Source: Podaxis mareebaensis (lineage: Eukaryota; Basidiomycota; Agaricomycetes; Agaricales; Agaricaceae). From it: DNA of 37,732 nt. Below, one piece after another: positions 627-30,007 of the stretch. The notes beneath the pieces were generated by a model. That model was not told the DNA's origin, made no database searches, and was given only the letters and a program-made list of their open reading frames with translations. Every line of letters begins with the position of its first letter. Within the stretch, counting starts at the first letter, position 1. Made by a program: the position numbers and the translations under genes. The stretch lies in NCBI GenBank assembly GCA_018524725.1, contig JAEUWP010000157.1, forward strand, positions 1 to 37,732, read 5' to 3'.

Positions 627-3456
627 TCACTCCACATCGTCCTCCAAGCTCTTCACACTCCTATACCTCACAGCCTGAACCATATCTATAACCGAGATTA
701 AGATCACCACAGCTTCGGAAACGGGAACTCCGTGGAACCTCGTATTCTTCCCCACAATACTCGGCATCAAAGTCAACAGCGCCAGCACTTCTGTAAACAG
801 TAGTAACATGGTAGCGAGCCTGTACTTCCCAGCATATGTCTTCGAATGGTTGTTCATAATGATCTGTAGAATCGCGCCAGTGAGGTTCAGCGACTCCTCC
901 AAATTGGAGACACATTGAAGGAGGGTTAGGAAGCGTGAGGAGTAGACCGGACTAAGCTCTTCCTCTGGCAGTTGAATACGCGGCGAGAGGAGGTACATCG
1001 ACGAGGGGTTTAGGAAGTGCTCAGCTGAGAAAATGGCTACGAGGAGCTGCGTAAGGATATTATCAGTAATCAAACTAGATAAATCGTAGCCAATGTAGGA
1101 GCACGTACGATTAGTTTGACCCCTCGAGATATCCTCCCCTCAATCCTCTCACTCGCCCTCTCCAAGTGCGTAGCTTTGGCAAGATGTATCCTCGCAGTCC
1201 AATTCCCTTTCCCATGTTCATTTGACCAGCCAAACTCAAGCCTCAAAACCGCTTTGAGCATAAGCAACGGTAGAATCAGCTGGGAGGTGTGGATGAGTGG
1301 AATCGGCGTAAGCCATTGTCCAGCGTCTACACTGCTCATCACATATTCATGCATTATCTCAAGTGTCGATATCACCTTGCTGAGTGCGAGGAGTGTCGTC
1401 CCTAGACGTGCAATGCCTACTGTGCTTGTGCGAGCGTACCAGTAGTGAACTGTCAAGAACCAGGAGAAGATGCGGATATAAGCTCTGGATAATCATTAAT
1501 GTATAATTCCCACACGACATGAAGGACGCACATTGTCATTAAGAGAAAACGGACACGGTGTGGATGAGCATCTTCGTCAATTCTGTGCCCAGAAAGCGCA
1601 ACTGCACACGGGAATAAGAGATAAATATAATGGCAGAGTGTGATGAAAGTTGGAAGGGAACACTCACTTGTCAACTCATTGGAATATTGTAAATATTCCA
1701 GCTCGCTCTGTGATGCTGTCATGTTGTAAACTCCGGGTAGTGAATCAATTGCAGTATCCATCTCGGCAATCGTCTTAGGCGTGTATCCGGCGAAGGAGAG
1801 CTTCCATGTCACGGTGACGTATTCATCGTCTGAAAGAAACGTTGGCTCTTTATCGATTCGTCTTTCAGGAGCCGCCACACCTGGTGTAAGGGCTTGAGGT
1901 TCTACACCCTCAATAACTTCCTCTCTATCAACAGGAATTGCAACAAGGTCCTGCGAAACCGAATGACACGTCAAATGTCCAACGGGCGTAAACACTTAAA
2001 CTCCAAAAACCGCACCTTAGGTCCCGAAGCTCGCACCATCGCGGACAGAAACGGCGCGTACAGCCACTCTAGCTTCCCTTGCTCGCCTGCCTCCTTGGTG
2101 GACTCAGAATTGCTGGGTGGAACTTGTAAATGTATTTTGGTCCCAAAGACGCTATTCTCCTGGTACGACCGATCGCACTGATGCCATTGTGGATACTCGT
2201 AAGGGTTTCCATTTACCGGGTCAACGCACTAAAGTGAGCGGTTGGCTCTTGGGCAGCCAGCATCGTCAGAAAAGACAATGGCTTACTATGTTGCCCAAAA
2301 GTTCCTCCTGCGCTTGGTCGTAAGCTTCTCGTCTGAATAACTTTGTTTCGCCCACGATGCGGAGGTGTGTTCTATATACTTAGGCATCAACAAAGGCAGC
2401 GGCTTTCCAAGGAGTGAGGAGTCCACCTACCGGGTTGTTATATAAGGATGATAATCGGTGACAGGTGTCTGGCCGCTTGTGAATTCTAGATCGAAAGTAT
2501 TCCTAATTTCATTCGGAGATATATCACCGCTCCATTCTGGTTCCTCCTCCTTATCCGACCGTGGCGTTGATTCTCCCGGATTTAAATGCGCGGATCTTCT
2601 ACTCGCAATGTTGTGGAACTGGACGAGGGGTATCGTAATCCCAAAGCTGTCATATATTTCATCTTCGAGTGTTGGCTTTGACGACCTGGACAGTGGCACG
2701 CGAATGAGAAGTGGGCAACGCGTGTCAAAGGCTCAGGGAGACGACGGACCATTTCCGGACACTTGGCGTTTTAAACCATTGCGGCCTCCAAGTAGTATAA
2801 TTCTTCGCAAAATCCAACCACGAAGGTCTGTCTGGCTGGGTGAGAACGAACGAGGCGCGAAGGTCATAGTTCGATAAGTTCGCCCTCTTGCTAACACGTA
2901 CGTCAGCCCAAACATCGAAACAACAGAAACCCAAAGGTGAGACTCACAAATGACTCGTCGGGACACGCAGTGTCACATTCGCAAACGCATTCTTGCTATT
3001 CAAATTAATGCCCTTAAACACCGTCCCACTATACACCAGCCTCTCCGAGCGTTCTTCCTCATCGACAAAAATAACCCCATCCTTCGCGCGCTCATCCCTC
3101 ACCCAGACAGAAGCAACAATATCAAACGCAGAATCCTTCGTAATCATCGGTCGAACAACTTCATTCCAGTCAGATACCTCTCCCTCCGGCGCGTCGTGGT
3201 ACATATCTTGGTATGGGTCCTCCTCCCCATTCCACAGGTTGCTAAAAAATCCGCCCGTGCCCAAGATGCACACGATACCAAACACTATACCCAGGCAGAA
3301 TTTTATAATCGACCGGGGCTTGCGCTGTGGTGCGCCTGGGTTCAGGCTCAGGTGTAGCTGTGACCCAAAGTCATGGGGCCCCTGCGCAGCTTGGGGGACC
3401 AAATCGTGTGGAGTTTGTCCTCTGCGTTCGGCCTCAGGCGGGGGATCGATAATCAT
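627..3456 (-). CDS. Uncharacterised multi-pass membrane protein, paralog 1 (9 exons)
   Basis: Minus-strand exons are 2948-3456, 2750-2890, 2431-2685, 2287-2371, 2016-2228, 1668-1950, 1532-1601, 1109-1484 and 627-1046. Joined they give 783 codons with one stop. All introns are 47-66 bp and GT-AG, and all phases match the second copy at 7577-10410, which confirms the model. The protein has a Pro-rich cytosolic start, one signal-anchor helix near residues 50-70, and a long extracytoplasmic part with the block VVRPMITK and several N-glycosylation sites. A C-terminal bundle of about five or six membrane helices carries HYWYARTSTVGIARLG and AKATHLERAS. I do not recognise the family and see no catalytic motif. 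The general plan (lumenal domain, then a helix bundle) loosely recalls CLPTM1-like proteins, but I saw no diagnostic match. Function is unknown. Confidence 0.85.
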
Positions 3457-5584: not shown

Positions 5585-7134
5585 CTACAATTTTACATCG
5601 ACATTTTCTTCCTCTGGTCTGTTCTCTTTCTCATCCTCCCGATTCTCTTCAGCTTTCTCTTGCGCGGGTTTGTACGCGGGTACATCGGGGGCAGTGGCTG
5701 CGGCTGCGGCTGCAGTAGCCGCCTTCAGCGCTTCACGACTCTTGGCTCGCTTTCGATTCTCCCTCAAAGTTACTCTAACGGCGTCGAGTACCTTAGGGTG
5801 CACCCATTTTCCTGACGCAATGATGCCATAGTTCTTCCCTAGTGTTCGTCCCAGACCGAAATTGAGCGGGTTGCCTTTTGAATCAGTTACGACACCTCCT
5901 GCTTCCTCGACCAGGAGAGAACCAGGCGCATGATCCTGTCAGGGTTTAGGGAGCGTCAGTACGACAGAGGAGAGTTACGTACCCAAATCTTCTCTTCATA
6001 GTCGGGACGTGTAGGCATCCGTAGGTATAAATGTCCCCTTCCCATAGCGAGCGCGCAGTATTTGGCCTGGCTGTCCATCCGAAGCGGTGGCTCTTCCACA
6101 GTCAGGAGTTCCGAAACACGAGAGTTGAACGAGTGTGATGAATGACCAGATTCGACCGACTCCAACACGATGAGATCCGCGGGGTGAACAGTAGGCATGC
6201 TGATAATAGTTGGTTCGAAGCCTTTCATCGTTAACTAAATCAAAAATCAGCGCCAAGATGGCCGGGAGACGAGGCCGGGACTCACTCGCTCCGAACCCTG
6301 GTTCTTGACTGCGACGAAGATGTAGCCTTTTGGTCCATCTGGCTTGCTCGTCCGGTGTGGGAGATTTGGACAGCCAATGACACCAACTGTCACCTCTCCG
6401 TCTACAATTAACGAGAGACAGACAGCATATTGTTCTCCCCGCAAGAACCCCTTCGTTCCGTCAATAGGATCAATCGTCCACATACCTATCCATACAATAT
6501 GAGCACAAGCGCATTGAGAAAGATCAAACAAGCGCACGTCCGGCATTCCCTCCTTCGTATTTCCCTCTGTCAATCGCATCTCTCACCTCCCGTGGTGAAA
6601 TATCGTACCCCTCTCCAATCGCCCACTCCTCCTTCTCATAGTATAGCCGCTCATCCGTCAAACCCTCATTCACAAGCGACGTGATGTGGTGCAACATCTC
6701 CTTATTCTCCGGCTTCCGCAGCTCAGAAGCATCCTCTTCTCCAACGATCGGGTCCTCGGGGAAAACAGTACCGAGTATCGAAGAAATCAAGGCCTGTGCA
6801 GCATAATCACCCACTACATGGTAACAACCCCGGTACCAACAGACATCAGTATCAGCATCACAAACGCAGTGTATCACTCCACCCACGCACCGGTAACAGG
6901 TGATTCGTCTGACTTGGTTATAGACTCGCCTTCAACCAACGTTTCAAAAACCTTCTGAGTGACGATGCATGCACGACGGACGGCAGAAACGGCGACGGTG
7001 CGCTCTTTGTGGAACGGGAGGACGGGCTGGCCGGGGAGTTGAAACATCCTGAAACGGTGGTGGGATGTGTGGAATGGACGACGATGAGGAAGAGCTACAC
7101 GACAGATGAGGAGAGCTGCATTTCGTCCAACCAT
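5585..7134 (-). CDS. MET22: 3'(2'),5'-bisphosphate nucleotidase (Met22/Hal2 type)
   Basis: Exons are 6891-7134, 6538-6813, 6286-6485, 5983-6234 and 5585-5935, giving 440 aa. The family hydrolyses 3'-phosphoadenosine 5'-phosphate (PAP) to AMP in sulfate assimilation, is Mg-dependent, and is typically inhibited by Li and Na. The metal-site residues are present: GEED (E107, E108), DPIDGTKG (D179, D182) and WDHAPGS (D325), followed by VEEAGG. Two parts are unusual compared with the roughly 350-aa yeast enzyme. There is an Arg/His-rich N-terminus of about 30 residues before MFQLPGQP, which could be a mitochondrial presequence, or translation may start at the later Met. There is also an Ala/Glu-rich C-terminal tail of about 55 residues. 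The gene faces the membrane protein paralog at 7577 across a shared 442-bp promoter region. Confidence 0.93.
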
Positions 7135-7576: not shown

Positions 7577-10410
7577 ATGACAGACTCTCCCCCAGCCACC
7601 AAGGCACACGAAAACAATCAACTACAGCTCAACCCGGGCGTACCTCAACGTAAACCCCGCTCAGCATGGAAACTCTGCTTATGGACAACTCTCGCGATCT
7701 CCATGCTCGTCGGAGGTGCAATCACCTACTCCTTTGTCAGCAGCGTCTGGTATGCCTTTCAGCACACGCATGTCAGGTTGTACCATGGCAAAGCCAATGC
7801 AGAGGTTTCCGACTGGTCGCAGGTCGTCCGACCGATGATTACAAAGAACACAACGTTTGATATCATTGCTTCCGTGTGGGTCAGAGATGAACGGGGGGCT
7901 GATGGCGTTATTCGTGTTGATGGGGGAGAGTATCAGGAGAGGCTGATATTTTCCGAGACGGTGTTTAGGGACGTTAGTCTGAAGAGTGCGAATGCGCTGG
8001 CGAACGTGACGTTAAGCGTACCAACAAGCCATTTGTGAGTTCTCCGGTATCAGACATCCTTCATGCTGACACGGGTTAATATTGCAGCAAACAAACAAAC
8101 TTGTCTAACTACGACCTTCGGGCGTCTTTCGTCCTCACTCAGTCAAATAAACCTGCGTGGTTGGACCATGTTAAGAATTATACGACCTGGAGGCCCCGAG
8201 GACAACAAGTGCCAACTGTCCGAAAATGGTATGTTATCCTCCTACCAACACTTATTTCCTGTTCTCATTCATTCGCTTTTTACAGGGAACAAGAACCAAC
8301 GCTCCGGGAACAAATATATGATAGCTTTGGGTTTTCTATACCACTGATCCAGTTCCACAACATTACAAACCGTCAGCCCACACCACCCACAATAGACGAA
8401 TCCGACTCCACGCAACAAGAATCAAATTACGATTCCGATGGCGAAGCGGATTGGATGGACGATGGTTCACTGGATATGCAAAGTCAAGGAAAAAACGACC
8501 AGATACAATCCGGTTTCGTCCTCCAATACAACGGCAATAGGAAGCGCGTAACAGAACAACATCCTTATGTCGTCACTCGGTAGGTACCTCGTCCCTAAAC
8601 TGTTCTAGCGACCCCGCCTTACGACGAACACGCCAACTGCAGCACTCACCTTTTCGTCGTCGACGAGACTGAGCTATTCAATCGACAGTTATACAACATA
8701 GCACATAAAAGACTCATAAACCAGACTGTAATTTTTCATGTCGTCCCCAACAAAAGTACCCACTTATACCCTCGGTCTAGTGTATCGACCTGAAAACCAA
8801 ACGCCCATACGCAACCCCAGAGTGGTACCAATGCAAACGGTCCTATTTGACAAACGGAGTATTTGAAACGAAAGTTCAGTTACGTATCCCACCCAATGCT
8901 TCGGATACTGAGCACAAGGGAAACGGGAAATGGAGAACAGAGTGGATGTATGCACCATATTTTTCTGCGATTCAGCAAGCTCCTGGACCAAAGGTACGAC
9001 CATGAAAATCTTGCATGTATCTCATGATCTAAGGCATCAATAGGACCTCATCCCGGTTCCCGTGGATAGAGAAGGCACAACGGACTCCCTGAATCAGGTC
9101 TCAGTCCCAGGTATTATTATTCATCTAATATACATCGGACCGGAGACTTATCTCCTTTTAAAAGACGAAGAATATGTTAATGTGACCTGGAGGCTTGCAT
9201 TTTCCAGGGCCACAAGCGTCCAGATGATGTTCGCAGAATCAACAGCCCCTCCTATTTACAATATGACAGCACCAGAGCACGAGTTGCAGGATTTACAAGA
9301 GAACCATGACTTCTATCGTACGTTTCTCTAAATTCTGAGTTTTTACCTGGTCTCGCTCAAAGTGAGCCGTCTTTTTCCCTTTTGATTAGTGGGGTTGGCT
9401 GGCCTCAGAATCCACGAGGACGCACACCCTCGTCGTTCAGGCATCCTTATGTTTGCATTGTGAGTCCCATCCTGCAGCGCTGCTCAGCCGACAGCGAAAC
9501 CCCAGGCTCATGAACTTTGCTTTAGAGGGGTAATGCACATTCTCGTCTATTTGCTACAAACGCACTACTGGTACACTCGCACCAGTACAATTGGTATTGC
9601 ACGCCTTGGGACGATGTTATTTGCATTGGGGAATCTCGTTGAGTCATTCCGAGAGATACTTGAAGATGTCTTCAAGCAAAAGTATAGTCGCGGTTTCTTG
9701 CCGACCACGACACTAGTACTTGTGGAATTCTTTGACGCACTCCCGATGCTGTTTATGCTCAAAGCGGTGTTGAGGCTCGAGTTTAGCTGGTCGACGAAGA
9801 AACAAGATGGTGCAGGTGGTACAAAGGCTGAAGGGTGGACGCCGAGGATCTATTTCGCCAAGGCTACACACCTGGAACGTGCAAGCGCGAGAGTTGAAGG
9901 AAGAATTTCTGTGGGGAGAAGGCTAGCAGTAAGTTATGGCTCTTATCGAAGGTGTATGATATACTCAAACTACCTCCTCAGATCTTACTCGTCCTCTTCG
10001 CGACTTTCCACTTCCTAGTTCCGTTAACAACCCATCTCATAGCACCACGAATCCAACTCCCAACCTCGACAAGTTCACTCGAACCGCTCTCCCCACACAC
10101 ACCGACCATCCTCAAATATGTTGACAACTTGGTCAGCTCCCTTCACTTTACTGGCGGAATTCTCCAGTTGGTGATGAATTTCCACTCGAGAACGTATGCG
10201 GGAAAGTATAAATCCGTGGCGGTGTTATGGATGTTGGGACATTTGTTGACGTTCATATATTTATCTCCGAGTGTCCTGGGGAGGGATACGAAGGCGAATG
10301 GGCTTTACGTTAGTGAGGGTGTTGCGGTTGTATTTACAGTTGCGGATTTGTTGCAGGCTGTGAGATACCGTAGTGTGAAGGTTGTGGAGGAGGATGTATC
10401 GACTGACTAG
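7577..10410 (+). CDS. Uncharacterised multi-pass membrane protein, paralog 2 (9 exons)
   Basis: Exons are 7577-8034, 8088-8228, 8286-8579, 8643-8727, 8781-8993, 9044-9317, 9390-9459, 9526-9928 and 9982-10410, totalling 788 aa. Exon count and every intron phase match paralog 1, and exons 2, 4, 5 and 7 have identical lengths (141, 85, 213 and 70 nt). Layout: short cytosolic start with NPGVPQRKPRS; signal-anchor helix at about residues 34-56; extracytoplasmic domain to about residue 490; then helices around LMFALGVMHILVYLL, LFALGNLVESF, ALPMLFMLKAVLRL, ILLVLFATFHFLVPL and a C-terminal pair. The frame is open throughout, so both copies look functional. No enzymatic motif is visible. It may be a transporter-like, scaffold or folding factor, but that is a guess. 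The pair is a head-to-head inverted duplication around 4.1 kb of unrelated genes. Confidence 0.86.
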
Positions 10411-10500: not shown

Positions 10501-12240
10501 CATTCGTTCGAATTAACTCATTCCATCATCTTCCCAAAAGGTGCAGGATGTCGAGGGTGGTATGTATGTTTCTGCCATAAATTTCGGAACCTGACTCATT
10601 TGAGCCTTGCAACTTTATTCACCATCACTACCACCGAGGGAAATGACCACCCTCAGCACAGTTCATAGTGAACTGGATCTTTACCTGCGTGTGCGAATGG
10701 ACCCGTGTGAACAACCTCCAGCTCGTGGGTTGCCAGCGCTAACACAACCCTTATCAACACCGCACTCTCTCCACCACCGACTTCGCCCAGATCCATACGC
10801 GACTCGCAGCTGCCAGTGCGTATGAATAACCTTTGTCGGGTCACATCGTAATGGATTGTAACAGACCTGAATATCCAGGGCGATGCCTGCTCGCCAATGC
10901 AACAGTTGCCTCGAAACAGATCCGCCCCCGAAACAATGTGCGGCATGCAAAAAAGCCTGGTATTGTAGCAGAGAGTGCCAGCGAAATAACTGGGTCCGTC
11001 ATATCTTTGATTGCAATCCGTCGAGACCAATCAACACCGCGGATTACCTCGCACTCGCTGTTCGCGAAAACCTTATACCTGATCATATCCAGACACGCGA
11101 GGATTATGGATTCTCGAGGACAAGAGAGATGGGCAAGCTTCTTGGGTTGTATATCGGTCTTCTCGACCCTGCGCGTTTGGGGGTGAAGCCCTACACGTTG
11201 CACAAGTGGAGATTGAATGGTACGCTGGTTGAAAATATCAAGAAGGAATTTGAACGCCTTCCGGAAGGAAGTAGGGGTGGGTATTATGCTTGGTTTCTTG
11301 AAAACCAACATGTGGTCAGTGGAGCACGGAGCCAGGACAGGAAGCAGGAAGAACAATCGGAAGCGGACGATATGCTTCGTCGCGCTTGGTGTTTCATAGG
11401 AAAGTCTCCCACAGCTTCCGTTGACGAAATTCGTCAATATCAAAAGTCCGTTCCCGAGAGAATTAATGATTGCTTCGGTCTTTATGCAATGCTTTTGGCA
11501 GGAGCGCACCCAGGACCCAACCTTGAGCTCTGGATCAAGTTTGGCTTTTGTGCCTGCGAGTGCCAAGAAGCGGAGATGGAACTCGCCCGATCGTACATCC
11601 AACTGATCCATCGATGCACCTTCGACGAATTCTGCACTGCATACACCTCTTCTTCTCTCGTCTCTCTTTTCAGAGCCAAGGGAACCAACATCACAACCCC
11701 TTTGACTGTCGACTCAGACCTTTTGGTCGCCGATGTTCTATCCGGAACTCCACGTAGCAATAAATCGGTTTGGGATCTGAAACAGTATATCCAAGTCAAC
11801 ACCATCTATGGAGACAAGGACACTACGTATCATGCCATTCCTTCCATATCCGCCGACTACGGCTTCTTTAACTGCAGAACCGCGGAGGAACACAAATTGC
11901 TCTTCGATCTCTACAAGGGGTATTTTGCCCTCGGCTGGAGCGCGAACCCGCTCGAACTACACCAGGCCTGCATCCAGGGACGTCTCTTCGCATATTTCAC
12001 GGAGAATGTGGGGTTCAAGCTTAAGCAGAAGAAGACGTACAAACGGTTGTTGAAGAATCCGTATCCTCTTCCCGAGATTTGATTGAATTCCTCTCTAGCC
12101 TCCATGTATTTGTATTAGGGCTATCCCGCTTCCTTCCTCCTGTTATGATACTACATTGCTGTCGAAAAGCGGATGTTATTATGTATGACTATGGCAGGCG
12201 GCTGGAAACGAACCCGCACTAGGTAGTGTGTGAATAAATG
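10501..12240 (+). repeat. Tandem duplication, unit 1
   Basis: This unit matches 12395-14083 in order and orientation. The match covers the upstream flank (for example the shared gcctgcgtgt and gtgtgaac phrases), the whole MYND gene and about 150 bp downstream (aggtagtgtg). Boundaries are approximate, judged by eye. Confidence 0.75.
10883..12082 (+). CDS. MYND zinc-finger protein, tandem copy 1
   Basis: Single uninterrupted exon of 399 aa. The N-terminal MYND finger is complete, with ligands C6, C9, C19, C22, C28, C32, H40 and C44 (CNSC, CAAC, YCSREC, HIFDC). MYND fingers bind two zinc ions and usually mediate protein-protein contacts with Pro-rich partners. The remaining 350 residues have no SET domain or other domain I recognise, though the region after the finger (INTADYLALAVRENLIPDHIQTREDYGF in two adjoining pieces) is conserved between the copies. 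Agaricomycetes carry many such MYND-only proteins of unknown role. The start Met is shared by both copies (MPAR), which supports it. Confidence 0.9.
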   Translation: MPARQCNSCLETDPPPKQCAACKKAWYCSRECQRNNWVRHIFDCNPSRPINTADYLALAVRENLIPDHIQTREDYGFSRTREMGKLLGLYIGLLDPARLGVKPYTLHKWRLNGTLVENIKKEFERLPEGSRGGYYAWFLENQHVVSGARSQDRKQEEQSEADDMLRRAWCFIGKSPTASVDEIRQYQKSVPERINDCFGLYAMLLAGAHPGPNLELWIKFGFCACECQEAEMELARSYIQLIHRCTFDEFCTAYTSSSLVSLFRAKGTNITTPLTVDSDLLVADVLSGTPRSNKSVWDLKQYIQVNTIYGDKDTTYHAIPSISADYGFFNCRTAEEHKLLFDLYKGYFALGWSANPLELHQACIQGRLFAYFTENVGFKLKQKKTYKRLLKNPYPLPEI

Positions 12241-12394: not shown

Positions 12395-14083
12395 CATTCG
12401 TTCTATCACCTTCCCAAATGAATAGGCCTGTTGTCAGGAGAATATCGAGTGTAATGTGCATGCCTGCCATCTCATTTATATCCTTGTAACTTTATCTACC
12501 ATTGCCACTATTGAGGGACTAATCATGTCAGGCGCGTGTCACTGCGAACTGGGCTTGTGCCTGCGTGTCTGTGCATGGACTCGTGTGAACGGTCCTCATT
12601 GTGATCCCGTCTGCGTCAACACGTTTTGACCCTATACCACACCTCCACGACCACCTTCCCTACAACTTTTGCGTCTGATAGTGCGTATGGTCGACCTTAC
12701 CAAGGAAACTGCTATGACTGACATGAACTTGAAGGCAAATGCCTGCTCGCGAATGCAATTCTTGTTCCGAAACGTGCCCATCCCCAAAGCAATGCTCAGC
12801 ATGCAAAAAAGCCTGGTATTGTAGCCGGGAATGTCAGCTGAGCGACTGGGTCAGTCATATCTTCGACTGCAACCCGCCGAGACCCATCAACACCGCGGAC
12901 CATCTTGCGCTCGCCGTGCGCAAAGACCTTATACCCGATCATATCCAGACATGCGAGGATTATGGGTTCTGGAGGACAAGGCACCCGCATATGCTTTTTG
13001 GGCTGTACGTCGGCCTTTTCACGCATCTTGAGGTGAAGCCCTACACAGTACACAAGTGGAGGTTGAATGGTATGCTGGTAGAAAATATAAAGAAGGAATT
13101 TGGACGCCTTCCTGAAGGGAACAGGGGAGGGTATTACGCCTGGTTTCTTGAGAACGAGCATGTGGTTAGTGGAATCCAAGCCAAGGATTGGAAAGAAGTG
13201 CGTTCGCAGGCGGACGACATGCTTCGTGACGCTTGGCGTTTCATAGGGAGGTCCCCCACGGCTTCCGCTGAAGATATTCGTCGATATCAAAAATCTGTTC
13301 CCGAGGAGAATAGTGATTGCTTCGTTCTCTACACGATGCTTTTAGCAAGAACCCACCCAGGGCCCAATCACGACTTCTGGATCACGTTTGGCTTTTGCGC
13401 CTGCGGAGACTATGCAGCTGAGATGGAACTCGCTCGATCGTACATCAAACTAATCCACCGATGTACCTTCGACGAATTCTGCACTGCATACACCTCTTCT
13501 ACTCTCGTCTCTCTTTTTAGGGCCAAGGGAATCGACATCACACCCCCTTTGAACGTCGATTCAGGCCTCCTGATCACCGACGTTCTTTCGGGAACCCCCC
13601 GCGGGAATAAATCGGTTTGGAATCTAAAGCAATATATCGAAGTCAAGACTATCTATGGGTATGAAGACTCCGCATATCGCCCCATTCCTTCCGTATCCAT
13701 AGACTATGGCTTCTTTAATTGCAGAACCACGGGGGAACATAAAATGCTTATCGATCTCTATAAACGTTTTTTTGCCCTTGGCTGGAGAGCGATGCCACTC
13801 GAGCTGCACCAGGCTTGCATTCAAGGACGTCTCTTCGCATATTTCATGGAGGATTTGGAGTTTGAGGTCGAGCAGAAGGAGACGTACAAACGTTTGTTGA
13901 AGAACCTGTGTCCTCTTCCTGAGATTTGACTGAACTTCATTCTGGCCTCCTTGTATTTGTATTGGGACTGCCCCGCTTCGTTCTTCCTCCTGTTCTGATG
14001 CTATGCTGTTGTTGTAAAGCAGATGTTATGTATGAACATGCATACGGCTGGTAACGGTCGCGCGCTAGGTAGTGTGTAAATGA
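12395..14083 (+). repeat. Tandem duplication, unit 2
   Basis: This is the second direct copy of the roughly 1.7-kb unit, holding the second MYND gene with matching 5' and 3' flanks. Similarity in the flanks is lower than in the coding part, so the duplication is not very recent. Boundaries are approximate. Confidence 0.75.
12739..13929 (+). CDS. MYND zinc-finger protein, tandem copy 2
   Basis: Single exon of 396 aa, colinear with copy 1 from MPAR to PLPEI. The MYND ligands are all kept (CNSC, CSAC, YCSREC, HIFDC). The deletions relative to copy 1 are whole codons, for example near the HPHMLFGLYVGLFTHLEVKP region and near the DWKEVRSQADD region. The frame has therefore been kept under selection. 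The product is presumably a cytosolic or nuclear protein-interaction protein; no catalytic domain is seen. It arose from the same tandem duplication as its neighbour. Confidence 0.9.
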   Translation: MPARECNSCSETCPSPKQCSACKKAWYCSRECQLSDWVSHIFDCNPPRPINTADHLALAVRKDLIPDHIQTCEDYGFWRTRHPHMLFGLYVGLFTHLEVKPYTVHKWRLNGMLVENIKKEFGRLPEGNRGGYYAWFLENEHVVSGIQAKDWKEVRSQADDMLRDAWRFIGRSPTASAEDIRRYQKSVPEENSDCFVLYTMLLARTHPGPNHDFWITFGFCACGDYAAEMELARSYIKLIHRCTFDEFCTAYTSSTLVSLFRAKGIDITPPLNVDSGLLITDVLSGTPRGNKSVWNLKQYIEVKTIYGYEDSAYRPIPSVSIDYGFFNCRTTGEHKMLIDLYKRFFALGWRAMPLELHQACIQGRLFAYFMEDLEFEVEQKETYKRLLKNLCPLPEI

Positions 14084-14232
14084 CGTTCGCTTCTGGTTTT
14101 ACTTAGACGCTAAGACTAGCGGTGCGCGCCGGATCTCGCAGCGAAGGGATTCGAGCGCTTGTGGGACGCTGAATCAACGTGAATACGAAACGCGGCTATC
14201 TGCTGGCCATGATGACGTCTCGCGGACCGTAC

Positions 14233-14727
14233 CCCAGGGGCAGGTGCGGTGATCATCCAAGTATAATTCAAACCAGAGCCGCTTGCTATGAAAATATGGG
14301 TTTCCAGCACTTGGGAAGCTTTCTGGGTGTTTGTGACCTCCTGCATGAAGGCCTAGCTCGGTGGATTTATGCGGGTAGGTTGCTTGGCGAAGAATGTGCC
14401 GCCACCTACGACGGCTTGCGCTTCGAATGTCTGAATAGTTCACGTAACATCGTTGTTCTTGCAGCTAGAAGGGAATTCAAGTACAAGCCGAGGCACCTCC
14501 TTCGCTAGACACTTCCCTAATTAGCTTGTACTTTTTACCGCTGACCGTAATTGCTGCAATTTCATGCCAGCATTTTTGAGATTTCTATGCAGAATAAGCT
14601 GACTTGATCCAATGCCTTGCCTTTGGACAAGATCCGCGGGTTCTTGAGCATCTACAAGAAGCGCCAGAGCAGAGGCTGCCACGGTGAGCCAGAGAGCGAA
14701 AAGGACAATAGAAGAGGCGAACTTCAT
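14233..14727 (-). pseudogene. Kinase-like secreted protein family, copy C (broken)
   Basis: This is the third, inverted member of the family at 16494 and 29096. Exon equivalents are 14604-14727 (signal peptide MKFASSIVLFALWLTVAASA), 14489-14553, and a third exon starting at 14430. Intron 1 is 50 nt, as in the other two copies. Three defects mark it as dead. The donor of intron 2 reads GC instead of GT. There is an in-frame TAG at 14353-14355, where the intact copies have Gln. Similarity stops at about 14233, just after the hinge-like APAPG, so the catalytic HGD/DFG half is missing. The RR before the mature part is QR here. Confidence 0.8.
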
Positions 14728-16493: not shown

Positions 16494-17408
16494 ATGAAGT
16501 TTGCCTCTCCCATTTTCCTCGTCGCTCTCTATCTCGCCAGCAAAGTCTTTGCTGCGGCGCTTCCCGTGGATATTGCAGGATCCATTGACCTTGTCCGAAG
16601 GCAAGGCGTTGGATCAAGTCAGCTTATTCCACCCGTAAACCGAAACATTATTAACAAACTTTTGCAGCAATCACGGTTGGCGGGAGACAGTACAGGCTAA
16701 TCAGGGAAGTCTCTGGTGAAGGAGGTGCTGCGGTTCGTCAGAACTATTCTCTCACCATTCCAAAACATCATCTGACGTGATCTCTTCAGACATTCGAAGC
16801 ACAAGCCGTCGTAGGAGGCGGAACTTTCTATGCCAAGCGACCTACCCGCGTCAACCCGCCGAGCCAGGCATTCACAAATGAAATCACAAACACACAGAGG
16901 GCTTCTCAAGTCTTGGGAACCAACATCTTCGTAGCGAGTGGCTCTGACTTGAATTATACTTGGATGATCACTGCGCCCGCCCCCGGGGGTGAGATCTGGC
17001 TCCGATGGAACGCAAATAAAACTATGTTCGCAAGAAGGGCTGCTTGCGAGGCGGACATGACAACTGCTCGTACCGTAATTGTAAGCCAGAACCAGAGACT
17101 CGCTACTGGTGCTGGATTCGTTCATGGAGATAATCATCCCGGAAATGTAAGTCTCGATTCAGCTTCAGTTCCGTATGAGAGCTCACATTGCCTGGAGTGG
17201 TACGTGCCCTCCACCGGTACTATCAATACCGCAGTTCCTATCGACTTTGGACTAGTCCGTCCCCCGCCTCCGGTAAGGTGTTCTTATCCCCCATGCCATC
17301 TTTCTGATTCAGGAATAGGCCACCAACATCGAAACACTGGTTCGAGATCAATATGTCTATAGCGCGGACATGTGGAGCTTCTTTGCGTCTAGTGGCTTTT
17401 GCACTTAA
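16494..17408 (+). CDS. Secreted minimal kinase-like protein, copy A (236 aa)
   Basis: Exons are 16494-16617, 16668-16732, 16790-17146, 17198-17272 and 17319-17408. Residues 1-22 form a signal peptide (MKFASPIFLVALYLASKVFA). R35-R36 before QGVGS looks like a Kex2 cut. The mature part shows protein-kinase landmarks in order: a Gly-rich start (YRLIREVSGEGGA, 50-62), an AK lysine (K79 in GTFYAKRP), a helix-C Glu (E94 in NEI), a hinge-like WMITAPAPGG (121-130), the catalytic loop HGDNHPGN (H175, D177, N182) and PIDFG (D198-G200). The C-terminus is only 36 residues past DFG, far shorter than in ordinary kinases. These motifs usually mean ATP-Mg phosphotransfer; activity is inferred. Its place may be the secretory pathway or outside the cell. 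The model is supported by copy B, which has the same five exons. Confidence 0.75.
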
Positions 17409-18725: not shown

Positions 18726-21025
18726 CTACACTTTTTCTTCCTCGCCGAACCACAGATCAAACCGTTCCTCCTGATACATCTTTTCACCATCAACCAAATT
18801 GTCTGTATAGAATTCTTGGTAATACTGTTTCGCATTATTGATTTCCCAATACCAGAACATTGATTTGGAGCCAACCCCAGCGAGATATAACCCTGTTTCA
18901 ACCTGACCCAGGGTCATCTTCCGAAGGAGATGCCAGAGTGAAGAAGCGGAGTCGGGAGAATATGGCTGCAGGACCCCCGCCTTCTGACGACGTTCAACGC
19001 CCTTCAAGAGTAGTGGTCAGTGATTTCTCGGTGCATCGAAGGGAATAGCACAACTTTCTTGAATTCGGTGACTGCAAACTTCGAAAATTCTCTAGGGTGA
19101 AGTCGGAATAGTACTGTCCCGCGGTCTGCTTTCGCGCGTCCCTGTAAGTCCCAAAGTTGGCAAGTAGAATATCCCCCATGTAGATTTGCCCAGATATACA
19201 AGGTCTTGCGAAAATCAGCATATCCGTGTTTTTGTAGTAATTTCATGTCCAACTGAGGTTGGTCTGCAAGCCGGCCGCACAAGTGCGCGACCAAACAATG
19301 AACCTCTGCCTTGATGATAGAGTTGGTCAATTCAGTGGTGTGAGGATAGGAAAGTGAGAACGCGGAATCAGGTGCGTGAGGTACCGAGACTAATTCTAGT
19401 GACGTATGCAGTTAGGGAAGAGGTCATGATGAGGCACGAAGACTCACCTGAGCACTGAGAATGGTAGCTTTCCTCGGAGTGGCGTCGCAAATTGTAGCAG
19501 TGCTTAAAAAGAACTTGGTATATTGCGAAAGGTTTAAACCAAAACACGTCCGAACGTCCGGGATCGATGAGAAATTCCTGGAATGATTTGTGATAGAAAG
19601 ACATATTCCCGCCAAGTTGAAAATAGATTGAACCCCGAAGCTTCTGAATGGCCCCAGGGCTGGCATTACTTTGTTGGTAGAATGGACGACTAGTATCAGT
19701 GCCGCAATCGAATTCAAGAGGTTGGTCACGGTCTGAAACTCGAAGCACAGCGCTCATTCGGTTGCATATGGTTTGGAACTGCATCCTGGACAGTTTCAAC
19801 ACGTTTCCCACTATTATCCCACTCATAGTTGAATTGGCATGGCATAGGATAGCGAGTAGGAGACGAATGGATGGAAGCATCTCGACGGGGATGCGTCGCA
19901 TGATCAACGTGTAAAATGCGTCTAGCTCCGCGAAGGGTGACTTAGAGCTACTAGGGGTGCTAGGGCAGTCCGAGATAACAGCGAGAACGGCACGCAATGG
20001 CTCCTCGGGTCCAAGTGCCCCCGATTGAGCAATGAACCGGAGAATGCTTGCCGGATAGACGAACAAGCCACCCGCAGCAGCAACGAGGGTCTTGATCACG
20101 TCCTCAGAGGGCCATGGAGATTCTGTGGATATATTATGGTGCCGGAGGATGTTTTCGAAGCCTGCACGGAGATAGAGCTCGATATCTCTATCGGCGTCAC
20201 GCGAAATAGGGAGTACCGTCACGTAACAGAGTCGGGCGATATCTACCTTGGAGAACGTTGCCGCGATACGGGGCTCTGGGCGGCTGAAGAACGCCCAGCA
20301 GAGGGGAATAGCACCTTCTCGAGCCGCCTTGGCCACGATTTCAATGATTGCACACTGTGCATCTTCCCCCTCACACTCGTCCAGTCCATCAACAAATATA
20401 GCGATCCTCTTCCCGATCCTCTTCCCATTCCTCTCTAGTTCTCGCAGAGGTTCGACAATCAGCTCGTTGAACTGAGATGCCAACGACTTGTCGACAAGGG
20501 TTTTGTCATGGCGCACTTTCTTCTCAACAAGATCGTGGTAATCGGGAAACTCAGCAGACAGCTGGTACGCGATGGTGGTGAAGAAGCGAGTGGGTTTGTC
20601 TCGCCCGTTGATCGAAAAGAAGAAAGCTGCACCGAGCTTTCCTCGATCCTTGAGCTTCTCCGCACAAGTCTGTGCTACGGCGGATTTACCAACTCCAGCT
20701 GGCCCACTCATCCAAAGGATAGGCAGAGGAGTGGCACCAATCGCAGGTATCGCCCATTGTACGGTATCCTCCACGTATTGCTCCCGGGTTCCAGGGTGAC
20801 AGTTGGGTGCCGGGTCACGAACGGAGGAATCGTGTGCTGCTTCAGGAGTCGATGCCTCGAGCAGGATTTCGATGCCTGAGAACGGACAACATTAGTTGAG
20901 CTATCTGCTTGTCCTGTAGAGAGAGGCTTACCGCTTGGTCCGTTTGAAACATTAGTTATCTGCTGCGCGTCCGTAAAATGAGAGTTATTGACCACTATCC
21001 CCTGGGCTCTGGAGAAGATTGGCAT
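18726..21025 (-). CDS. NACHT-domain NTPase (NLR-like), 712 aa
   Basis: Minus-strand exons are 20932-21025, 19448-20875, 19055-19395 and 18726-19001. The protein starts with a short segment rich in Asn and Gln (VVNNSHFTDAQQITNVS), then the agaricomycete-type linker EASTPEAAHDSS and CHPGTR. The NACHT domain follows, with Walker A GPAGVGKS (89-96, K95) and Walker B IFVDGLDECEGED (D194, D197, E198). After NACHT come winged-helix-like sequence, FYHKSFQEFLIDP, and a roughly 200-residue tail without recognisable repeats. Fungal NACHT proteins are signal-transducing ATPases linked to non-self recognition and heterokaryon incompatibility. No ankyrin, WD or TPR repeats follow, so this is a short architecture. 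The last intron uses donor GTTGTG and is inferred from phase and a good branch site. Confidence 0.88.
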
Positions 21026-26016: not shown

Positions 26017-27120
26017 TTACACCGATGCTACTCGTCTCTTGGTACCAAGGAAGAACAAAAGAATGCGCCACCCAAGCTGCACCCTCAATTTCTTCGCCTC
26101 CTCAAGTGTCTGATAGAATTCCTCCTCGATACGTGCAGCCTCCTCCTCCAACTTCTCCTTCACATGACTATCGCCTGGGTTCTTCAGCTGCTCGGCCAGA
26201 CCCTTCAAAAACGCCTTCTGCTCATACAACAACTTCTGGAACGGGTTGTACAAGTGCCTTCCAGCCTGCGTCTCGTTCAAACGTTTCTTGAGATCCACGA
26301 CCTCCTCTTGCAATAACAACGCCTCCCGCTGTTCACGTTCCCTGATCATTTGTTCCACAACTCTCCATGCCTCTTCGAACGTGTTCTTTTCCAGACGATC
26401 TGTTCTTGACCCTTTCTCGATCATCACTTTCCAAAACCTCTCCCGCAGCTCTTGTTCTCTCTTCTTCCCAGTATCCGGATTAACCCTCTCCCACATCGTA
26501 GATAGCAGGATGACGTTCTTCATCGCACTATCCCCGACAAGTTCGATGAATGTCCTTAAGTTTCTGCATTGAGACCCAGCCATACGATTGTCTGTAATCC
26601 GATGGAGGTACACGATCCCGCTGAGTTTGACGTGATTTTCGTATCTGGCAGTGGAATGTTCGAGGTTTCGAATTTGTCTCAACAAGGGGCTCAGCACATA
26701 CGTTTGAGCCATCCACTTCCCGATAATCTCCAATATCTGCATATCAGACCTCGTCGTATCGTCAAATCCAGGTGTGTCGACGAGTACGATACGATCTCCA
26801 TATTTCTCATGTGTGACGCGCGTAGCTTGAATATCATTCATGGTCGACTTGAGTTCGTCCCTTGCCCGGCATCCCTTTTGATTCGTAAGGAGGTCGATTA
26901 GCTATCAACAACTCAGCTAAATTCACCAGGTCGTTATATCGTGGTGGAAAAAACTTACAAAGCTCTTCCCTGCACCAACAGGACCCATAAATCTGCGCGA
27001 AGAAATAAAAATCAGCTATAATGTCTCGGGTCTAGAACCAACCATCCCATACGCGATGATAATGTCATCTGCTCTCAGATCTTTCACAGTGGTGCTTGCG
27101 TTCGTATTCTCGACAGACAT
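26017..27120 (-). CDS. AIG1/septin-like GTPase with C-terminal coiled coil, 309 aa
   Basis: Exons on the minus strand are 27053-27120, 26959-26992, 26702-26901 and 26017-26644. A P-loop GPVGAGKS (26-33) and switch-II motif DTPGFDD (76-82) define a GTP-binding domain of the kind found in fungal AIG1/IAN-like proteins. VKLSGIVYLHRITDNRM follows, as is usual there. A canonical NKxD is not seen; STMWERVN takes the expected G4 place. The last 110 residues are Glu/Lys/Arg-rich and predict a long coiled coil, ending with a short hydrophobic patch (WRILLFFLG) that might touch a membrane. Many paralogs of this group occur in mushroom genomes, with unknown cellular roles. The start ATG at 27120 gives the shortest complete model. 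Confidence 0.86.
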
Positions 27121-29095: not shown

Positions 29096-30007
29096 ATGAA
29101 GTTTGCCTCTCCCACTTTGCTCTTCGCTCTCTATCTTGCCAACGTAGCCTCTGTTCTGGCGCTCCCCGTGGATATTGAAGAATCCACTGGCCTTTCTCGA
29201 AGGCAAAATGTTGGATCAAGTCAGCTTATTCCGGCAGTTGATTTAAACATTACTGACAAACGTTTACAGCAATCACGGTCGGCGGAACGCAGTACAGGCT
29301 AGACGATGAAGTTTCCGGTGAAGGAGGTGCTGTGGTCAGTCCGAATCATGCTCTCACCACCGGAAAAATATTGTTTGACGTGATCTGCTCAGACTTTCCG
29401 GGCAACAGCTGTCAGCGGAGGCGGAACTTTCTACGCCAAGCGACCAACCCGCGTCGACCCACCGAGCCAAGACTTCGTAAATGAGATCACAGACACCCGA
29501 GAAGCTTCTCAAGTGCTGGGAACCAATATCTTCGTAGCGAGTGGCTCTAACTTGGGCTATACTTGGTTGATCACTGCACCGGCCCCTGGGGGTGAGATCT
29601 GGCTCCGATGGAACGCAGATAGAACCAGGTTCGCAACGAGGGCCGCTTGTGAGGCGGACATGGCTACTGCTCGTACCGTAGTTATAAACCAGAACCGGAG
29701 ACTTGCTGCTGATGCTGGGTTCGTTCATGGAGATAATCATCCCGGGAATGTAAGTTCTCAATTCCGCTTCAGCTTCATGGGAGCTCACATTGTCTGGAGT
29801 GGTACGTGCCCCTTAGTGGCACTATCGACACTGCCGTTCCTATCGACTTTGGACTAGTCCGGCCGCCGGTAGGGTGTTCTTTTACCCCATGTTATTTTAC
29901 TAATAATTCCATAATAGTCTACTGACATCGAAACATTGGTTCGGGACCAATATATCTATAATGCAGGCATGTGGGCATTTTTTGCGGAGAATCAATTCTG
30001 TCGTTAG
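29096..30007 (+). CDS. Secreted minimal kinase-like protein, copy B (234 aa)
   Basis: Exons are 29096-29219, 29270-29334, 29393-29749, 29800-29868 and 29918-30007. Intron 1 is 50 nt, as in copy A, and four exons have identical lengths to copy A; exon 4 is two codons shorter. The signal peptide (MKFASPTLLFALYLANVASV) and the basic pair before QNVGS (SRRQ) are kept. The kinase landmarks are all present at the same residues: GTFYAKRP (K79), NEI (E94), WLITAPAPGG, HGDNHPGN (H175, D177, N182) and PIDFG (D198). Many substitutions separate it from copy A while the frame and these motifs stay fixed, which suggests purifying selection on the catalytic core. The protein ends with a Cys (QFCR), matched by GFCT in copy A. 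Substrate and partners are unknown. Confidence 0.75.

Follow-up and report, generated by a model that had tools for sequence, protein, structure and literature searches.

Two spliced genes of Podaxis mareebaensis that probably encode secreted minimal kinases

Results

Genes A and B and their splicing

The window analysed here is the whole of contig C158 (GenBank JAEUWP010000157.1; 37,732 nucleotides) from the 36.95 Mb, 429-contig genome of the basidiomycete Podaxis mareebaensis. Two of its genes, termed A and B, probably encode secreted minimal kinases, a reading to which we assign a probability of roughly 0.6. Five exons of gene A join in frame to give a protein of 236 amino acids (aa); gene B joins in the same way to give 234 aa. 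The exons are as follows.

16494..16617, plus strand: gene A exon 1; signal-peptide-like start (maximum 9-residue hydropathy 2.8, at residue 7), short pro-region, RRQ
16668..16732, plus strand: gene A exon 2; first strands and glycine-rich turn (TITVGG...SGEGGA)
16790..17146, plus strand: gene A exon 3; K79, E94, hinge, C149, HGDNHPGN (D177, N182)
17198..17272, plus strand: gene A exon 4; WYVP...DFG (D198)
17319..17408, plus strand: gene A exon 5; final 29 residues, C235, stop TAA
29096..29219, plus strand: gene B exon 1
29270..29334, plus strand: gene B exon 2
29393..29749, plus strand: gene B exon 3; Lys, Glu and HGDNHPGN retained
29800..29868, plus strand: gene B exon 4; DFG
29918..30007, plus strand: gene B exon 5; Cys just before the last residue, stop TAG

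An earlier note, drawn up from the letters of this DNA alone, had proposed the five-exon splicing, the kinase landmarks of A and their retention in copy B (29096-30007). All three proposals held. Counting along the gene A product gives K79, E94, C149, D177, N182, D198-F199-G200 and C235, with 36 residues past DFG, and B keeps every landmark residue at 76.5% identity to A across 234 residues. The same note's remark that the unspliced DNA yields short fragments was likewise borne out, the plus strand of locus A having only two open frames of at least 100 aa (104 and 149 aa).

Support for the exon joins came from homologues. Four annotated Macrolepiota fuliginosa proteins (P0001-P0004, gene models) are 61-71% identical to the gene A product and cover 96-100% of its length, and their alignment with it passes through all four exon junctions. 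At two further loci of the P. mareebaensis genome, F and G, seven exons each form reading frames that are open throughout; their last four introns, which lie in the kinase part, occupy the same four places as those of gene A, in the same phase. The introns of A and B measure 46-58 bases and are all of the GT...AG type. Some donors are weak, namely GTCAGC at intron 1 of both genes and GTTCGT at intron 2 of A, which counts against the proposed structure; because these donors are weak beyond the GT, the junctions of introns 1 and 2 of gene A rest mainly on homology.

The kinase parts of A and B differ by 52 synonymous and 56 nonsynonymous changes, with a ratio of nonsynonymous to synonymous rates (dN/dS) of 0.27 (0.37 for the whole gene). 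Between F and G the corresponding figures are 10 and 4 changes and a dN/dS of 0.11 (0.07 for the whole gene). By these ratios the kinase part is under purifying selection and its likeness is more than chance. The first 41 residues of A and B show 4 synonymous against 19 nonsynonymous differences (few sites), consistent with an N-terminal region that is free to vary.

Relatives and copies of the family

Relatives were sought among 5.8 billion proteins by two single-protein searches and one profile search; the protein search requires shared five-residue words, and distant relatives may escape it. Eight public relatives were found, the four from Macrolepiota and four from Leucocoprinus (P0005-P0008), in agreement with the basidiomycete origin that the earlier note had read from the letters. 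All are named hypothetical, and their UniRef labels are uncharacterised or weak APH/ABC1. Judged by sequence, the family is thus confined, in the searched data, to a few Agaricaceae (parasol-type mushrooms). Among prokaryotes, taken as one genome per species, 93 pattern matches gave one confirmed locus, which is archaeal (L023); its open reading frame of 583 residues contains a HADSHPGN/DFG stretch, by which we take its product to resemble an ordinary ABC1/UbiB protein. None of 35 pattern matches in viral contigs was confirmed as a relative, and PADLOC returned nothing for any of 10 members.

Seven loci of the P. mareebaensis genome bear the kinase part, and four of them (A, B, F and G) are intact. 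The earlier note had rightly described a family of copies; it had missed a third, broken copy in the window:

14221..14727, minus strand: copy C; in-frame TAG, likeness ending just past the hinge segment

Locus D (on contig C48) has one in-frame stop. Locus E (on C112) has an in-frame stop as well, and HGG in place of HGD. The intact pair F and G (G000:C322 16859-17191, minus strand, and 29385-29720, plus strand) lies in opposite orientation about 12.5 kb apart, a spacing that resembles the 12.6 kb between A and B, possibly by chance. A further remnant (L030, G000:C421:73685-73858) is a degraded gene of the F type that retains its pro-region, with no kinase part seen downstream. A search for other gene families that reuse the LEAR-rich pro-region of F returned only F, G, E and this remnant.

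A midpoint-rooted tree of 13 rows (the eight public proteins together with A, B, F, G and D, whose stop was written as X) splits an A-type, comprising A, B, D and the four Macrolepiota proteins, from an F-type, comprising F, G and the four Leucocoprinus proteins, both with support of 100/100. A, B and D form one clade (97/96) and F and G another (99/97). Of the 10 inner branches, 6 are open, and P0004 is a long branch. Since A, B and D, and likewise F and G, group by their own genome, the copies arose by duplication within lineages. Fast gain and loss of this kind leans towards a role in interaction. A kinase effector or toxin acting on bacteria, nematodes, insects or other fungi in the manner of the bacterial protein HopBF1 would be a special case of a secreted kinase. 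Its favour comes from products that are small, minimal and apparently secreted, from the broken state of three of seven loci (C, D and E), and from the separate clades formed by A, B, D and by F, G; with no known uptake route, target or toxicity, and no HopBF1 chain named in the PDB sequence searches or among the fold matches listed, we hold this special case to be rather unlikely.

Catalytic residues, domain models and predicted fold

The Lys, Glu, Asp and Asn that correspond to K79, E94, D177 and N182 of A are invariant across all 10 aligned rows, each of which carries HGDNHPGN or HADSHPGN as catalytic loop. DFG is present in all eight public proteins and is followed by 34-38 residues. With the catalytic residues invariant, phosphate transfer would be the likeliest activity of family members.

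A structure model was made for P0001 (71% identical to A) from ten alignment rows. Where the earlier note had looked to structure prediction for the N-lobe and catalytic loop of a kinase, this model shows the kinase order of strands and helices, with the conserved Lys on strand 75-81 and the conserved Glu on helix 88-104; the refuting outcome that the note had named, a confident prediction lacking these parts, thus did not arise. Past DFG the C-terminal lobe (C-lobe) consists of two short helices, and full helices F to I are absent, as expected from the minimal C-lobe that had been proposed. Protein kinases lead the fold matches listed (Foldseek, VIA-align), and all 50 VIA-align entries among those listed are kinases. 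The predicted P0001 model is thus a kinase fold.

Among the domain-model scores listed, the cut-off of APH (PF01636, 23.2) was exceeded by P0001 (28.9) and F (26.0), with A (14.6), B (14.1) and P0005-P0008 (13.4-16.5) below; for ABC1 (PF03109, cut-off 22.9) the best score listed was 22.8 (P0008), and A, B, P0001 and F reached 20.2, 18.8, 19.4 and 21.0, respectively. Pkinase (PF00069) was not listed for A and B at E <= 10, nor for the six members of one set and the five proteins of another scanned at E <= 1; most weak matches are dropped by the HMMER filters. Neither the Fam20C nor the CotH model was listed in the Pfam scans of members. Stray matches were to PI3_PI4_kinase in 3 of 6 members (best E 0.0058), to Fer4_NDSU1 in one (E 0.003) and to DUF7288 in one.

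These scores bear on a possible role as a secreted phosphotransferase for small molecules (a sugar, a glycan or an antibiotic), comparable to APH or to the xylose kinase Fam20B, which would overlap with the reading of A and B as secreted kinases. The loop HGDNHPGN, with HGD and not HRD, scores best with the APH and ABC1 models. Protein kinases lead the structure matches listed, however, and the substrate-binding helices at the C-terminus of APH cannot fit in the 36 residues left, and we regard a small-molecule substrate as doubtful.

N-terminal region and cysteines

The products of A, B, F and G have a hydrophobic start, in which 9-residue hydropathy peaks at 2.4-2.9, and then ALPV, and a similar start is seen in P0001 and P0003-P0006; for A the signal-peptide-like start claimed earlier was thereby recovered. 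In A-type proteins a short pro-region follows, ending in RR or a single Arg. The RR site named in the earlier note is present in A, B and P0003. As a family feature it had to be dropped, since P0001, P0002 and P0004 have one Arg only. In the F-type proteins whose N-terminus is complete (P0005, P0006, F and G; 312-346 aa), the kinase part is preceded by an acidic stretch rich in LEAR, a linker rich in Lys and Pro, and a site reading KR or KKR.

In the A-type, A, B and P0001-P0004 each contain two cysteines and no more: the first stands where helix E begins, and the second is the penultimate residue. F-type proteins whose N-terminus is complete carry two further cysteines, one in the linker and another close to the C-terminus, four in all. 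F, G, P0005 and P0006 have both of these additional cysteines (as does E, by eye), and the A-type has neither; P0007 and P0008 carry the C-terminal one, and their models are without the linker. Presence or absence together suggests a second putative disulfide in the F-type, joining linker and C-terminus. This pattern fits a secreted domain whose short C-lobe would be held by putative disulfides, and together with the N-terminus it argues for secretion. The gene A product also has N-glycosylation sequons at N118 and N139.

Neighbouring features

Between genes A and B lies a NACHT/NPHP3-type NTPase frame, a NOD-like receptor (NLR)-like gene (19368-20774, minus strand). Upstream of A, two uninterrupted MYND zinc-finger frames stand in tandem (10883-12082 and 12739-13929, plus strand; Pfam E 6.9e-9 and 2.7e-8) and are 77-85% alike in three blocks. 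An inverted duplicate (2942-3203 and 7779-8040, 71% alike) of a gene judged membrane-bound by eye flanks an inositol monophosphatase gene piece at 6250-6579; Pfam gave no match for 2947-3456. The frame at 26017-26841 (minus strand) has no Pfam match at E <= 0.01 and contains a DTPGFDDT stretch, which resembles a GTPase G3 motif. Near the contig end, 35671-37281 (minus strand) holds a fragment of endonuclease-reverse transcriptase like that of a long interspersed nuclear element (endonuclease E 5.6e-14; RVT_1 under its cut-off).

Discussion

If A and B encode secreted minimal kinases, a signal peptide would lead the protein into the secretory pathway, where the short pro-region might be cleaved near the basic site and a domain of about 195 residues would fold in an oxidising compartment. 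A disulfide between C149, at the start of helix E, and C235, the second-to-last residue, may hold this domain and could compensate for the missing C-terminal helices. The domain would bind Mg-ATP through K79, E94 and the D177/N182/D198 set and pass phosphate to a secreted, cell-wall or foreign target. More speculatively, and with little confidence, we postulate that mushrooms secrete a new family of minimal kinases that act outside the cell, are produced as proproteins and are locked by disulfides. These might phosphorylate proteins of competitors, grazers or the fungus's own cell surface and would match bacterial minimal effector kinases in function though not by descent.

Several observations weigh against the reading of A and B as secreted kinases. 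The annotated models of P0007 and P0008 lack a signal peptide, and that of P0002 begins 27 residues upstream of it. The structure model, built on ten rows, represents P0001 and not A. The four other models reached 60.1-68.7, the mean over residues 201-210 is 63, and a single-sequence AlphaFold2 run on P0001, with a predicted local distance difference test of 37.9, was set aside. Template modelling scores by query length are 0.44-0.56 among the matches listed. A and B fall under both the APH and ABC1 cut-offs, and when the genome was searched with the Pkinase and APH models, none of the 149 and 8 matches, respectively, was a family locus. Finally, given the stops in D and E and the HGG of E, not all copies can be working kinases, and in P0004 the glycine-rich turn is missing its first glycine.

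The HGG of copy E and the missing glycine of P0004, together with a C-lobe at its minimum, would suit a secreted pseudokinase, in which the kinase fold serves as a binding or scaffold module and binds ATP at most. Against this stand the four invariant catalytic residues and the low dN/dS; copy E, having an in-frame stop besides HGG, looks broken rather than repurposed. A pseudokinase therefore seems to us improbable, and secreted, active minimal kinases the better account.

With a domain that ends 34-38 residues past DFG and two intact pairs in one genome, the family offers a direct test of how small a working kinase can be and of whether disulfides could replace the C-lobe that is missing. 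Conflict or recognition would be in keeping with the rapid turnover of its copies. By our impression of the literature matches listed, secreted fungal kinases seem little described; no description of this family was among those matches, and an earlier mention of related kinase-like proteins is possible. We rated the family as new within the protein kinase-like superfamily.

Comparison with known systems

Compared with eukaryotic protein kinases such as GAK and AAK1, the family is without a Pkinase match and most of the C-lobe past DFG is gone. ABC1/UbiB and APH enzymes share with it the HxDxHPGN-type loop and DFG and give the best sequence matches, which cover mainly helix E to just past DFG; these enzymes are not known to be secreted through a signal peptide, and their C-lobe is fuller. 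The Fam20 kinases are larger than the fungal proteins; they likewise have a kinase fold and act in the secretory pathway. Fam20B reportedly contains a C332-C389 disulfide (PMC7948968). Fam20 kinases show that a kinase fold can function in this pathway and bear a disulfide at its C-terminus.

HopBF1, according to two reviews, has a minimal atypical kinase fold distantly akin to protein kinases and aminoglycoside phosphotransferases, and phosphorylates HSP90 (PMC8150971, PMC9950578). It is bacterial and injected (type III), whereas the fungal genes are spliced, with introns, signal-peptide-like starts and a conserved Cys pair; it was not named among the PDB sequence matches, and its absence from the fold matches listed is no evidence for a difference in fold. 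Compared by description only, and with no descent shown, HopBF1 would be the nearest likeness in design: a minimal kinase exported to act elsewhere, much as the Podaxis proteins are apparently secreted.
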